From assembly GCF_002574545.1 (NCBI RefSeq), contig NZ_NUGT01000018.1, positions 1 through 64,000 of the forward strand: 64,000 nt of DNA, given 5' to 3'. Below, one piece after another: positions 998-4,645 of the stretch (position 1 is the stretch's first letter; each line of letters begins with the position of its first letter). The DNA comes from Bacillus sp. AFS055030 (GTDB taxonomy: Bacteria > Bacillota > Bacilli > Bacillales > Bacillaceae_G). Position numbers and translations under genes: made by a program. Below the pieces are notes generated by a model. It saw only the letters and a program-made list of their open reading frames with translations. It did no database searches and was not told the origin of the DNA.

Positions 998-2218
998 TTA
1001 CAATTTTTGTGGCTTACTTAACCTCTTATGCACATAAAATTTAATTAACCACATTGAAAATAAAGTATACACAACGATTGCAATAATAAAGTTTAAAATT
1101 GATAAGCCCTTTATTAGACAAATAATACTAAAAACTAAACTACACATTATCAGTAGTATATACAAAAGTGTCGAAATAGATTTTTTATTTTCTTCATTTG
1201 TATAAGGATAAATTTTCCACAACAAATGATAATTATACTGTTTTAAAATTGACATATTCTGAAGAGAAATTACGTAAAGAAATAAAATGCCGATCAATAT
1301 TTTCCCGATTGTAGTTGGCACTAAGTAAACTACGAACCCACCTACGAAAAGTTGTCTTAAAAACATACTTAAATAGTTACCATTCCTGATAAATGTACGA
1401 ACTAGTAAATAATTCGCAGCATTTCTCATTTTAAATTGATGTATGATTGGATCTGCCCATTTTCTTCTCTTAACTTGTTGTTGAATAGACGGTACATCAG
1501 TAAACATATTCGCAAATCGATAATAAGTAGCTAATCTTGAAGTATCAAGTTTAACATTTCTTTCCCATTGCACTCTTTTATTTTTACTACCTATTTGAAT
1601 AGATAATGCATAAACAGCTAAAATTACGATCATCATTACAAGGAAAAAACTGCTCCATATACTTAATAAACCATAAATAAATAAGAATGTACCTAAAAAC
1701 CTTAAAGAATAATCAAAAACTCGGTTTAATACACCATTATTTGTAAGATGTAAAAATGAAACAAAGAGATTGTATCCTTTTAATAAGAAAATTATTACCA
1801 TAAAGACAATAAAACTTGTTGTTTGTCCTAGTGTAAATTTCTTATAAATTGGATAAATCACACCTAACATCATTACCATTAAATAAACTTGAACGATGTA
1901 CGTAATGAAAAAGGAGCGGACAAAGTAACTTTTCATCTTTTTTTCTAAAGGTAATAAATAATGTAAATCAGGTTCTTTAAAAAAAGTAGTTACTTGACCT
2001 GTTACAACAAGAAAACTAAAAAGAATAGCGATTAGTAAAATAACAGGAAAATCTGGAGAAATTGTTTTTAGCATTTGTTGATAATAATATGCTCCTCCTC
2101 CAAATCCAAAAACAATCACAAATTTTATATGATCATTAAAAATATAACGACCATATTTACTCATTTCTTTTATAAAACTCCTAAACCGTGCTAACCATAA
2201 TTCTTTTATCGTACTCAT
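998..2218 (-). CDS. ecsB: ABC transporter permease EcsB
   Basis: This 406-aa polytopic membrane protein is the transmembrane partner of the EcsA ATPase. Several long hydrophobic segments are visible (for example FVIVFGFGGGAYYY, VILLIAILFSFLVV, LFIYGLLSIWSSFFLVMMIV), consistent with an ABC export permease. In B. subtilis the Ecs transporter affects protein secretion, competence, sporulation and regulated intramembrane proteolysis. The start codon overlaps the ecsA stop by 4 nt (ATGA), indicating translational coupling. Length matches the family. The transported substrate cannot be inferred from sequence. Confidence 0.93.
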   Translation of the reverse strand: MSTIKELWLARFRSFIKEMSKYGRYIFNDHIKFVIVFGFGGGAYYYQQMLKTISPDFPVILLIAILFSFLVVTGQVTTFFKEPDLHYLLPLEKKMKSYFVRSFFITYIVQVYLMVMMLGVIYPIYKKFTLGQTTSFIVFMVIIFLLKGYNLFVSFLHLTNNGVLNRVFDYSLRFLGTFLFIYGLLSIWSSFFLVMMIVILAVYALSIQIGSKNKRVQWERNVKLDTSRLATYYRFANMFTDVPSIQQQVKRRKWADPIIHQFKMRNAANYLLVRTFIRNGNYLSMFLRQLFVGGFVVYLVPTTIGKILIGILFLYVISLQNMSILKQYNYHLLWKIYPYTNEENKKSISTLLYILLIMCSLVFSIICLIKGLSILNFIIAIVVYTLFSMWLIKFYVHKRLSKPQKL

Positions 2219-2952
2219 ATTTCTTTTTCCTTCGTCGCAAAAATATAAATTTCATCCAATGAAGCATTTGGCATATTATATTGTGTTTGTAATTCGTTTA
2301 ATGTACCTTTTGCAATAATGACTCCTTCATGCAAAATAATAAATGAATCACAATAAATTTGAGCAGTCGATAAAATATGAGTAGACATTAAGATGCCTGC
2401 TCCCTTTTGCTTTTCATTGTTCAAAATCTCAAGTAAATCATTTATCGCAATTGGATCAAGCCCTAAAAAAGGTTCATCTATTATGTATAACTGTGGTTGG
2501 ACGATAAGGGAACAAATGATCATGACTTTTTGTTTCATCCCTTTTGAGAATGTCGAAGGGAAATAGTTCTTTTTATCATATAATCTAAATGTTTTTAATA
2601 GTTCTTCACTACGTTTTTTTAAATCTTTATCAGGAATATTATATGCCAATGCTGTAATTTCAAGATGTTCCTGTAGAGTTAATTCATCATAAATCATCGG
2701 TGTTTCAGGAACATACGATATGCTAGCACGATATGCAGTTGGATCTTTATCAAATGATTCACCATTAATTAATATGTCACCTTTTGATGGCTTCAAAAGT
2801 CCTAAAATATGTTTTATTGTCGTACTCTTACCAGCACCATTTAACCCGATTAACCCAACTAGCTCATTCCTATTTATCGTAAATGAGACATCTTTAATAA
2901 CAGGCTGTCTTGTGTATCCACCTGTGACATCTTTTACATGCAATAAAGTCAT
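2215..2952 (-). CDS. ecsA: ABC transporter ATP-binding protein EcsA
   Basis: The 245-aa ATPase subunit has Walker A GLNGAGKST (about residues 36-44), an ABC signature in the variant form TFSKGMKQKV, Walker B LYIIDEPFLGLDP and a switch histidine in STHIL. It would energise transport through EcsB. It is the first gene of the ecs operon, transcribed away from the tandem RNA genes and from hit, an arrangement that in B. subtilis is a simple ecsA-hit divergence; here more than 1.2 kb separates the two. A weak SD (AAAGGA, about 11 nt upstream) precedes the ATG. Confidence 0.95.
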   Translation of the reverse strand: MTLLHVKDVTGGYTRQPVIKDVSFTINRNELVGLIGLNGAGKSTTIKHILGLLKPSKGDILINGESFDKDPTAYRASISYVPETPMIYDELTLQEHLEITALAYNIPDKDLKKRSEELLKTFRLYDKKNYFPSTFSKGMKQKVMIICSLIVQPQLYIIDEPFLGLDPIAINDLLEILNNEKQKGAGILMSTHILSTAQIYCDSFIILHEGVIIAKGTLNELQTQYNMPNASLDEIYIFATKEKEI

Positions 2953-3066
2953 TCTCTACAAATCCTTTCAAATGTACTTTTCTTTTATATTTTATTGTAT
3001 CAAATAATAATCTTAACTGCCTTATTATCATATTTATCGAATACTAAAAAAAAATCCTTCTTTTTT

Positions 3067-3096
3067 TGAATACTATTTTAGGTTAAGGGTATTATA
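3067..3096 (+). promoter_or_regulatory. Candidate sigma-G-type promoter of RNA copy 1
   Basis: TGAATA at 3067-3072 and TATTATA at 3090-3096 are separated by 17 bp. The first matches the sigma-G -35 consensus exactly; the second matches the CATWMTA -10 in 6 of 7 positions. The same layout occurs before RNA copy 2 and before the SASP gene at 21719. Confidence 0.55.
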
Positions 3097-3102
3097 ATTC
3101 TT

Positions 3103-3492
3103 GAAGGGAAAGCAACACACTTTCTTAATTCAAAATTTGAAATGAGGTGTGTGTTAAAGGAAATTTAATTTGCGTTCAAACCTAAGTCAGATCATTGTTT
3201 AAGTGAAATGAGGTATCTTCAAAGATTAACATCGTTGTCATATACAGCAATGTAAAAATCTTAGGAGATGGTGCGCTTGAACAGGTTCTATAAAAACAAA
3301 GGTCATTAGTATACCAATTTGTAAATGAGGTGTCTCGAGCAGAACATATAATTTATTTATAGGTGTACCAATTTATTGAACAATTAAGCAAATGAGGTGT
3401 CTGTTAAAGACAATTTAACTTATTAACCTAATATCATTTCTAAAATCTTTCCCCTTCATCAAGGAGCAACTACTGGTTGCTCCTTGTTTATG
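3103..3492 (+). ncRNA. Structured RNA, tandem copy 1 (unassigned family)
   Basis: A segment of about 390 nt with no credible protein frame. It is closely similar over its whole length to the segment at 3759-4136. It contains four copies of the motif AAATGAGGTRT (3141, 3207, 3324, 3391) spaced between predicted helices: AACACAC/GTGTGTT around the first motif, ATCT/AGAT after the second, GTATACC (3309-3315) with GGTGTAC (3362-3368) enclosing the third, and TGTCT/AGACA after the fourth. It ends in an intrinsic terminator. The sigma-G-like promoter suggests forespore expression. The SD-like GAGGTG cores could mean pairing with C-rich targets or a protein site; that is inference. It should be compared with the forespore RNA CsfG of B. 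subtilis, whose detailed sequence I cannot recall well enough to assign it. Confidence 0.7.
3461..3492 (+). terminator. Intrinsic terminator of RNA copy 1
   Basis: Perfect 10-bp stem AAGGAGCAAC (3461-3470) / GTTGCTCCTT (3476-3485) with a 5-nt loop and a modest T-rich tail. Compared with copy 2, one G:C pair is replaced by A:T, a compensatory change that supports the stem. Confidence 0.85.
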
Positions 3493-3722
3493 TTGTTGAG
3501 AAGTAATTAAATTACCAAATACGCAGTAAGATGATGTTAATTTCAACTAATTTTTAAGATTATCCTTGATTTGTTTGTTAAGTGACACATGTTTTCCCTC
3601 CCCTTATCTCCTCTGACCATAATATTGAGTTTATTTATTACTTCCTATGGTTAGATCTTAACTCTCTTCCTATTTAATCTCTTGGTCGTTCTCCATTGCT
3701 TTTTAAAATTTCTTATTGTTTT

Positions 3723-3752
3723 TGCATACTTTCTTACATACAGGGCATCATA
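3723..3752 (+). promoter_or_regulatory. Candidate sigma-G-type promoter of RNA copy 2
   Basis: TGCATA at 3723-3728 fits TGHATR; CATCATA at 3746-3752 matches CATWMTA in 6 of 7 positions; spacing is 17 bp, as in copy 1. The 228-nt spacer between the two RNA genes (3493-3720) shows no convincing gene. Confidence 0.55.
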
Positions 3753-3758
3753 ATTCTT

Positions 3759-4136
3759 GAAGGGAAAGCAACACCACTTTTTGAGTTCTAAATTTGAAAT
3801 GAGGTGTCTGTTAAAGGTAATTTAATTTGCGTTCAAACCTATGTAAGGTAATTCGTTGAAGTTAAATATCTCCATAGATAAAACATCGTTGTATAAACAG
3901 CAGTGAAAACATCAAAGGGGATGGTTATCTTGAACATGATTACTTAAAAACAAAGGTTTTAGTATACCAATTTGTAAATGAGGTGTCTCGACCAGAGCAT
4001 ATAAATTTCTTAAAAGGTGTACCAATTCATTGAACATTTAAGCAAATGAGGTGTCTATCAAAGACAATTTATAATTACATTTTTAAATCTTTCTCCTTCA
4101 TCAAGAAGCAACATAGGTTGCTTCTTGTTTATTTTT
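3759..4136 (+). ncRNA. Structured RNA, tandem copy 2 (unassigned family)
   Basis: Second copy of the RNA at 3103-3492, about 378 nt. Three of the four AAATGAGGTGTCT motifs are kept (3798, 3977, 4045); the second is degenerate. Helices persist through base changes: ACACC/GGTGT replaces AACACAC/GTGTGTT, the ATCT/AGAT hairpin has a different loop, GTATACC (3962-3968) still pairs with GGTGTAC (4016-4022), and TGTCT/AGACA has a changed loop. The stretch TTTAATTTGCGTTCAAACCT is identical in both copies. The duplication sits between the divergent ecsA and hit genes and is oriented toward hit. Confidence 0.7.
4103..4136 (+). terminator. Intrinsic terminator of RNA copy 2
   Basis: Stem AAGAAGCAAC (4103-4112) / GTTGCTTCTT (4117-4126), 4-nt loop, followed by GTTTATTTTT. 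It separates the RNA from hit, which starts 72 nt downstream. Confidence 0.88.
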
Positions 4137-4207: not shown

Positions 4208-4645
4208 ATGGCACATGACGCTAATTGTATTTTCTGCAAAATTGTTGAAGGTAGCATTCCAGCTTCAAAAGTATACGAGGATGATGATGTTTTAGCTTTA
4301 TTAGATTTAAGTCAAGTTACAAAAGGTCACACTTTAGTCATTCCAAAGGATCATGTTGAAAACATATTCGAAATGAGTGAAGAGACAGCTAGTACATACT
4401 TCCGAAAAGTACCTCTCATTGCTAATGCAATAAAAGAAACTTTCAATGTTCAAGGTGTAAATATTTTAAATAATAGTGGTGAAGTTTCAGGTCAAACTGT
4501 ATTCCATTATCATATGCATATTTTACCACGATACGGAAATAATGATGGCTTTGATGTAAAATGGCTTTCAAACCAAAATCAATACACAAATGAAATGCTT
4601 CAAGAAATTGCAAAATCTATCGAAAATAACATTATTAAGAAATAA
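4208..4645 (+). CDS. hit: HIT family hydrolase
   Basis: A 145-aa histidine-triad protein of the HinT branch; family members hydrolyse nucleoside phosphoramidates and related adenylates. The catalytic motif is visible as HYHMHILPR near residues 99-107, and the N-terminal CIFCKIVEGSIPASKVYEDD is characteristic (a Cys pair able to bind zinc in some members). SD GAAAGGAAG lies 7 nt before the ATG. It is divergent from ecsA, as in B. subtilis, and is followed by its own terminator. Confidence 0.95.
   Translation: MAHDANCIFCKIVEGSIPASKVYEDDDVLALLDLSQVTKGHTLVIPKDHVENIFEMSEETASTYFRKVPLIANAIKETFNVQGVNILNNSGEVSGQTVFHYHMHILPRYGNNDGFDVKWLSNQNQYTNEMLQEIAKSIENNIIKK

Follow-up and report, generated by a model that had tools for sequence, protein, structure and literature searches.

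A tandem pair of structured RNAs between ecsA and hit in Bacillus sp. AFS055030, very probably of the Bvs196/S357 forespore family, with repeated Shine-Dalgarno-like elements

The window, a stretch of 64,000 nucleotides from Bacillus sp. AFS055030 (contig NZ_NUGT01000018.1), contains two related RNA genes. Both are located on the plus strand, in the region 3068-4136 between the divergent gene ecsA and hit (hinT). The features of the locus are as follows.

2215..2952, minus strand: ecsA, the divergent flank (from the frame list; in relatives by tblastn)
3068..3096, plus strand: sigma-F/G-type promoter of copy 1, GAATA-N17-TATTATA
3101..3492, plus strand: RNA copy 1, about 390 nt, its start estimated from the -10 box
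3101..3112, plus strand: 5' arm of the closing helix P1, copy 1
3140..3150, plus strand: first element A of copy 1, AAATGAGGTGT
3206..3216, plus strand: second element A of copy 1, AAATGAGGTAT, with no counterpart in copy 2
3263..3282, plus strand: element B of copy 1, AGGAGATGGT-N4-TTGAAC, resembling a translation start, with the frame MNRFYKNKGH and a stop
3309..3368, plus strand: hairpin GTATACC...GGTGTAC of copy 1, which encloses the element A at 3323-3333
3390..3416, plus strand: fourth element A of copy 1, including a possible mini-hairpin UGUCU-GUUAA-AGACA
3447..3458, plus strand: 3' arm of P1, copy 1
3460..3486, plus strand: intrinsic terminator of copy 1
3724..3752, plus strand: sigma-F/G-type promoter of copy 2, GCATA-N17-CATCATA
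3757..4136, plus strand: RNA copy 2, about 375 nt
3757..3768, plus strand: 5' arm of P1, copy 2 (3' arm at 4089-4100)
3797..3807, plus strand: first element A of copy 2
3916..3935, plus strand: element B of copy 2, AGGGGATGGT-N4-TTGAAC
3976..3986, plus strand: second element A of copy 2
4044..4054, plus strand: third element A of copy 2
4102..4127, plus strand: intrinsic terminator of copy 2
4208..4645, plus strand: hit/hinT, in the same direction as the RNAs and beyond the terminator of copy 2

The two copies are 81-82% identical over about 400 nt in BLAST-type searches, which agrees with the end-to-end similarity of 3103-3492 and 3759-4136 that was described originally. A search of the organism's own genome returned no third copy. 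Minimum free energies of -106.7 kcal/mol (copy 1) and -95.7 kcal/mol (copy 2) were calculated, corresponding to z values of -6.05 and -5.06, and 0 of 100 shuffles matched either. The terminator noted for each copy is present (3460-3486 and 4102-4127). The earlier statement that no protein frame spans either copy also holds, as the open reading frame list of the window contains no frame above 43 aa that overlaps one of them. An Rfam search had been named as a check; it gave no Rfam 15 match in the window at the gathering score. Seven sub-threshold matches (E ≤ 5) were judged to be chance. No match was found in a search of plasmid DNA with the window RNA.

Element A, AAAUGAGGUGU, occurs one to six times per RNA. 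In the form AAATGAGGT[AG]T it is found four times in copy 1 (3140, 3206, 3323, 3390) and three times in copy 2 (3797, 3976, 4044), which bears out the repeated motifs first noticed in the pair.

All 12 congeners (12/12) carry the RNA, with one to four matched places each, in a search of 100 relatives. Including the window genome, 30 matched places were obtained in the genus, and 26 full copies were aligned. Multiple copies stand in tandem, those of G012 being divided over contig ends. In a tree of the copies with a midpoint root, 13 of the 14 later copies cluster with support (98/98); the second group consists of the 12 first copies plus the second copy of G009. By this topology the duplication probably predates most of the genus, and the copies have mostly been kept apart, with little homogenisation. 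Outside the genus, eight genomes gave short matches, each of them placed between ecsA and hit and oriented like hit.

Within the 26 full copies, only 2 of 95 pairs of the consensus fold are changed on both sides, so the genus by itself yields little covariation. The exchange of G:C for A:T in the terminator stem, previously pointed out between the two window copies, is real and divides the sequences into 10 and 16. The strict conservation claimed for GTATACC/GGTGTAC was likewise found, with invariant pairs in 26/26 copies; being invariant, they are uninformative on covariation and lend the helix no support either way. The compensation proposed for the first helix (AACACAC versus ACACC) had to be withdrawn, as it is a register shift in a single sequence, copy 2 of the window, and not a column-wise change.

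The closing helix P1 covaries between genera, a feature that is new here and supplies the covariation that had been asked of a wider alignment. Among 32 RNAs, the cognate ends average -22.1 kcal/mol, compared with -15.8 kcal/mol for swapped partners (0 of 20,000 permutations). The set comprises 47 RNAs minus 11 near-duplicates and minus 4 with a promoter score below 8. The cognate partner is the best of the 32 in 12 cases and ranks poorly in some, for instance 25th in L093; the 5' end of the window RNA is of the commonest type, and about 20 other 3' ends pair with it better than its own. Pair 5 is GC in 16 and AU in 14 RNAs, pair 6 is GC in 15, AU in 10 and CG in 2, and pair 7 is GC in 19 and AU in 5. 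For these counts the 3' arm was picked for best pairing, and the permutation comparison is the actual test. An alignment of 14 sequences of the family retained P1, the first A hairpin and the terminator, and gave no trustworthy interior fold. Two interior pairings seen by eye are not claimed, namely a hairpin CUUUAUA...UAUAAAG with the loop GUUGUGAAAC in the same alignment and a GUUCAA/UUGAAC pairing that appeared inconsistent across genera.

Loci throughout the order were collected by a scan with a Hit protein alignment, from which the best 80 named loci of a longer list were taken. The gene ecsA lies upstream in 73 of these 80; two loci (L078, L095) were added by hand without ecsA and five were left out. 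Element A was found in 28 of the 75 named ecsA-hit regions examined. Together with 18 further regions, the window included, this gives 46 regions with element A and 47 without. The 28 positives are Bacillaceae, for example Bacillus, Priestia, Neobacillus, Cytobacillus, Peribacillus, Mesobacillus and Sutcliffiella, as well as Rossellomorea, Virgibacillus, Oceanobacillus, Pontibacillus, Terribacillus and Anoxybacillus; one is labelled Roseburia and is probably misnamed. The 47 regions without element A include L046 (Fictibacillus), which was placed there by hand because its sole match directly precedes the start of hit and is the gene's own Shine-Dalgarno sequence. They also hold three that look like members of the family, L111, with AAATGGGGTG variants, a promoter, P1 and element B, and L053 and L092, with element B and a terminator only.

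Element A was not found at ecsA-hit in any of 18 regions from 12 Streptococcus, 2 Listeria, 1 Enterococcus and 3 other lactic acid bacteria, all of which we take to be non-sporulating. It is also missing from the Ureibacillus and Halobacillus regions examined; as these genera are presumably spore formers, the RNA can be missing from the locus in spore formers, which counts against the explanation favoured below. Two further observations were made by eye at this locus. Between the RNA-like element and hit in L092 (Lederbergia, 2768-3488) stand about nine copies of a TTGCTGAACTTCGGGTGGGAA-like repeat of about 20 nt, and the ecsA-hit regions of L023 and L046 contain GC-rich structured insertions (CCGTGGGAC.../CTTTCCGCGGGGC...GGTGAGCCTCC) that resemble dispersed repeats.

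A 27-position model of element A was searched against 299 genomes of the order. At E ≤ 0.05 it had matches in 280 genomes, of which many were weak, and at E ≤ 1e-6 in 137. At the 30 loci retrieved for the best matches, the genus included, ecsA is near in 30/30 and hit in 28/30. Sigma-G (TIGR02850) scores above the cut-off in 276 of the 299 genomes. In 11 genomes the best sigma-G match reaches only about 1e-36 to 1e-38, and none of these (0/11) has element A at E ≤ 1e-6; since the 11 cluster by kinship, the co-absence counts as weak support.

The -35/-10 pairs reported for the two copies are in place at 3068-3096 and 3724-3752. Both have a 17-nt spacer and match the forespore sigma-F/G pattern rather than that of sigma-A. 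The pattern G[ACT]ATA-N17/18-[CT]ATNNTA, at most 200 nt upstream of the first element A, is present in 28 of the 46 ecsA-hit regions with element A, where 0.17 would be expected from dinucleotide shuffles, as against 2 of the 47 regions without element A (0.38 expected). Promoters were no more frequent than expected in a plain sigma-70 scan (13 vs 12.5), in keeping with the use of another sigma factor. Taken together, the promoter type, the terminators, the covariation of P1 between genera and the conservation at the same locus throughout the order argue for a duplicated, structured regulatory RNA, as was proposed in the original prediction.

Small RNAs from this locus have been described in Bacillus. 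The RNA ncr1670 is reported as 256 nt long, encoded between hinT and ecsA and enriched 2.77-fold with Hfq (PMC3574147), and the text of PMC4410918 equates it with S357 in B. subtilis. Bvs196 of B. velezensis is presented in PMC9147052 as a northern-confirmed RNA of 294 nt from a 490-bp hinT-ecsA region. The same text describes it as forespore-specific, under sigma-F and mainly sigma-G, with BLASTn homologues in 253 Bacillus genomes; its deletion lowers resistance to heat and UV and raises that to formaldehyde. On the label of the B. subtilis homologue the papers disagree, the name being S547 in PMC9147052 and, through ncr1670, S357 in PMC4410918.

The window RNAs share the ecsA-hit/hinT locus, a sigma-F/G-type promoter and an intrinsic terminator with Bvs196/ncr1670 (S357), and A elements and pairing ends with relatives of the Bvs196 group. 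They differ in being about 375-390 nt long and arranged in tandem, compared with 294 nt for Bvs196, and in having element B, the consensus of which is unmatched in L058 (B. atrophaeus) and L049 (B. safensis). The comparison with Bvs196 was made via the B. atrophaeus group, by locus and description rather than by the letters of Bvs196. B. atrophaeus and five relatives each have three A elements and are flanked by ecsA and hit, with end pairing and terminator read by eye; the promoter boxes of these six loci match at 10/10 positions in one, 9 in four and 8 in one. Used as a query, the B. atrophaeus RNA found 5 of 397 genomes of the order, all of one genus and with 80-86% identity. It gave no match in genomes picked by hand (one set of 15, another of 14) and no BLAST match in the window genome; kinship is therefore argued from locus, direction, promoter, elements and P1, and not from overall similarity. 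We consider it very probable that the two tandem RNAs of the window belong to the Bvs196/S357 forespore RNA family. The proposal of a new or lineage-specific forespore RNA is thus upheld as to the relationship with the Bvs196/ncr1670 (S357) locus, whereas the family is not wholly new, these RNAs having been described in Bacillus. A search of PMC full texts found none that describes the family beyond Bacillus. New here are the covarying closing helix, elements A and B, the tandem duplication in the genus and a second, dispersed locus; the spread over many genera, the tandem duplication as such and the repeated ribosome-site look-alikes appear to be new.

CsfG, which had been offered as an example of such a forespore RNA, does not apply. 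It is a separate gene in the window genome (RF00516 match at C20, 98 bits), the window itself has no RF00516 match, and the identity was rejected. According to its published description, CsfG (RF00516, ylbG-ylbH) is likewise a conserved forespore RNA of endospore formers, with a different locus and sequence. As both are forespore RNAs and both occur in the window genome, the window RNAs could act as a decoy for the CU-rich loops of CsfG; yet shuffled CsfG equals the true pairing in 351, 342, 472 and 300 of 500 cases for four A/B units. With pairing no better than in shuffles, the decoy was rejected as highly improbable.

The second locus was found in three genomes of one genus, probably Priestia (G205, G252, G293), each of which carries an additional copy of the RNA outside the ecsA-hit region. 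These loci (L163, L164, L167) have three or four A elements and neither ecsA nor hit by tblastn; the RNA of L163 is flanked by a cold-shock-like gene and a transporter-like gene, both named by eye. Being remote from hit, the second locus indicates that the RNA is a free-standing gene and not a leader of hit. Other arrangements were observed at ecsA-hit. L170 (G140, 2087-2673) has four A elements in two pairs, as if a form with two A elements had been duplicated in tandem independently, in another genus. In L081 (Peribacillus huizhouensis, 2486-3500) there are two tandem units, each with its own sigma-G-type promoter and with terminators read by eye, so duplication probably arose more than once.

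Element A is far more frequent than expected. With at most one mismatch, the 12-mer AAATGAGGTGTC occurs 151 times in the 46 ecsA-hit regions, where 0.18 would be expected, and its count on the opposite strand is 0; the total includes kin and tandem copies. The extended consensus of element A is AAAUGAGGUGUYUGUNAAAGAC, with 152 unique instances (151 in an unfiltered repeat). Substitution counts were taken from the unfiltered set; the first filter had fixed the letters at positions 3-9. Element B has the consensus AAGGRGAUGRU-N4-[UA]UGNA[CU], with 59 unique instances; of 72 pattern matches, 68 carry a start codon (66 UUG, 2 AUG) at the same distance.

The way in which element B couples a Shine-Dalgarno-like part to a start codon, at a fixed spacing, could point to a dual-function RNA that encodes micro-peptides, read from the UUG of element B and perhaps from the AUG of element A. 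The frame of the first copy does have 10 codons in 9/10 listed species of the window genus. The peptides are unlike between genera, however, a stop ahead of the next A element is hardly commoner in this frame than in the others (42, 41 and 34 of 42), and UGA breaks the AUG frame in several lineages. Read in the AUG frame, base 8 of element A falls on a third codon position, and it is near-invariant (150/151). Frame controls and codon-position conservation lend peptide coding no support, with no conserved frame or peptide, and we regard this dual function as very unlikely. SR1 of B. subtilis, as described in print, is a dual-function sRNA and also a Bacillus small RNA with a start site; the window family differs in having no peptide conserved between genera.

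Nine of the ten core bases of element A are complementary to the anti-Shine-Dalgarno sequence CACCUCCUUU at the 16S 3' end, U4 being a conserved mismatch. The core differs at one base from AAAGGAGGUG, which we take as the perfect Shine-Dalgarno sequence. The 16S gene of the window genome ends in GGATCACCTCCTTTCT. In 31 RNAs (the P1 set of 32 without L093), the true 16S tail finds 176 sites, compared with a mean of 80 for 300 permuted tails, the best of which reaches 173, a value close to the true one that weighs against mimicry. Pairing energies between the tail and the seven window A units range from -11.3 to -15.3 kcal/mol, and 0, 0, 17, 18, 24, 33 and 99 of 1000 shuffled tails do equally well; six of the seven thus beat at least 96% of shuffled tails and the seventh 90%. 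For the two B units, 92 and 105 shuffled tails do so, and about 90% are beaten. Complementarity to the anti-Shine-Dalgarno sequence is therefore repeated along the RNA and above control. In a permuted-core control, the true core gave 185 matches and 1 of 300 permuted cores also gave 185; this was the true core moved by one base, and the next (150) was a near copy. Where an A of the element faces U, it has been replaced by G in 22 of 25 substitutions, so that a wobble pair is retained, although transitions commonly arise anyway.

In the window genome AAATGAGGTGT has eight sites, six of them inside the RNAs. One lies at the expected Shine-Dalgarno position of a salA/mrp-like gene (named by eye), whose ATG is 5 nt past GAGGTG by manual reading, the frame list beginning at an overlapping GTG. 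The remaining site is antisense within a phosphatase-like gene (named by eye). At the salA/mrp-like site (L130, G000:C9:150995), the presumed Shine-Dalgarno sequence of the gene equals element A across 11 nt.

The explanation we favour combines forespore RNAs of this family with multivalent Shine-Dalgarno mimicry; as a whole it falls just short of an even chance, and mimicry as the conserved mode of action is held tentatively, at somewhat less than that. Each window copy would be transcribed in the developing spore from its own sigma-G (and/or sigma-F) promoter, end at its intrinsic terminator and be shut by the long-range helix joining both ends. The RNA would then present several Shine-Dalgarno-like elements, with A pairing with CACCUCCUUU and B resembling a start site, with tiny frames behind it that differ between genera. 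Through A and B, 30S subunits may be engaged many times over, and translation may be held back, or ribosomes kept occupied, during entry to dormancy. Duplication of the gene would raise the dose of the RNA. We infer expression in this organism, ribosome binding and any effect on translation.

Some observations do not sit well with mimicry. In the predicted fold, the mean unpaired fraction is 0.24-0.30 at the elements and 0.35 overall, so the sites would not be especially open in the folded RNA, which speaks against it. The conserved mismatch at U4 and the pairing of the two B units, equalled by about a tenth of shuffled tails, point the same way. Element A is also conserved past its complementary part (UYUGUNAAAGAC), which is not explained by ribosome pairing. 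This conservation bears on another possibility, that of a protein sponge in which the repeated element A titrates a forespore RNA-binding protein. CsrB/RsmZ-type sponge RNAs carry repeated GGA motifs in hairpin loops and have a like layout, with one short motif many times per RNA, although the window motif is AAAUGAGGUGU. Up to six near-identical 12-nt cores with a conserved downstream part and a possible mini-hairpin would suit such a sponge, as would the fact that bases not opposite the 16S tail are conserved too. On the other hand, there is no candidate protein, the mini-hairpin is weakly supported (across 104 units its five pairs are formed at frequencies of 0.63-0.92 and show little compensation), and the core is nearly a textbook Shine-Dalgarno sequence, which a sponge does not require. 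A sponge of this kind is considered unlikely.

The published partners of Bvs196 also count against mimicry, as those named in PMC9147052 are the mRNAs of spo0A and sspN-tlp and not the ribosome. In vitro, Bvs196 is reported to bind sspN-tlp RNA with a Kd of 73.9 nM and spo0A RNA with a Kd of 3.57 µM. Mutants of the predicted sites, nt 109-124 for sspN-tlp and nt 74-131 for spo0A, lose binding, and sspN-tlp mRNA is up 2.89-fold in the deletion strain, in which the three resistances are altered (PMC9147052). The window RNAs might instead be antisense sRNAs of the Bvs196 type, with single-stranded stretches that repress spore mRNAs such as sspN-tlp, and with A and B as scaffold. Against this, what the genera share is A and B together with the closing helix and the terminator, and the intervening stretches look different by eye. 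In B. atrophaeus, nt 109-124 would, by position, sit between the first and second A elements. An exact complement of AAATGAGGTGT lies in the mRNA of one listed gene of the window genome, in mid-gene. The antisense reading appears somewhat unlikely.

The functional study of this locus covered, in its published text, B. velezensis and homologues in 253 Bacillus genomes (PMC9147052). The present comparison extends the RNA family to many more genera, and it was unseen at the locus in the 18 non-sporulating relatives examined. The family, which gave no Rfam 15 match, has a defined architecture, repeated elements, and tandem and dispersed duplicates. Shine-Dalgarno mimicry may extend to a forespore-only, ribosome-occupying RNA with up to six Shine-Dalgarno look-alikes and mock starts and several 30S subunits docked, a bolder reading that we think rather unlikely. 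If true, ribosomes would be shut down or stored for dormancy by an RNA and not a protein hibernation factor, one built of anti-Shine-Dalgarno baits whose copy number is tuned by tandem duplication. To our knowledge, no other RNA is built in this way. With precise sites that can be mutated in B. subtilis, the long-standing question of how forespore translation is handed over to dormancy becomes testable.
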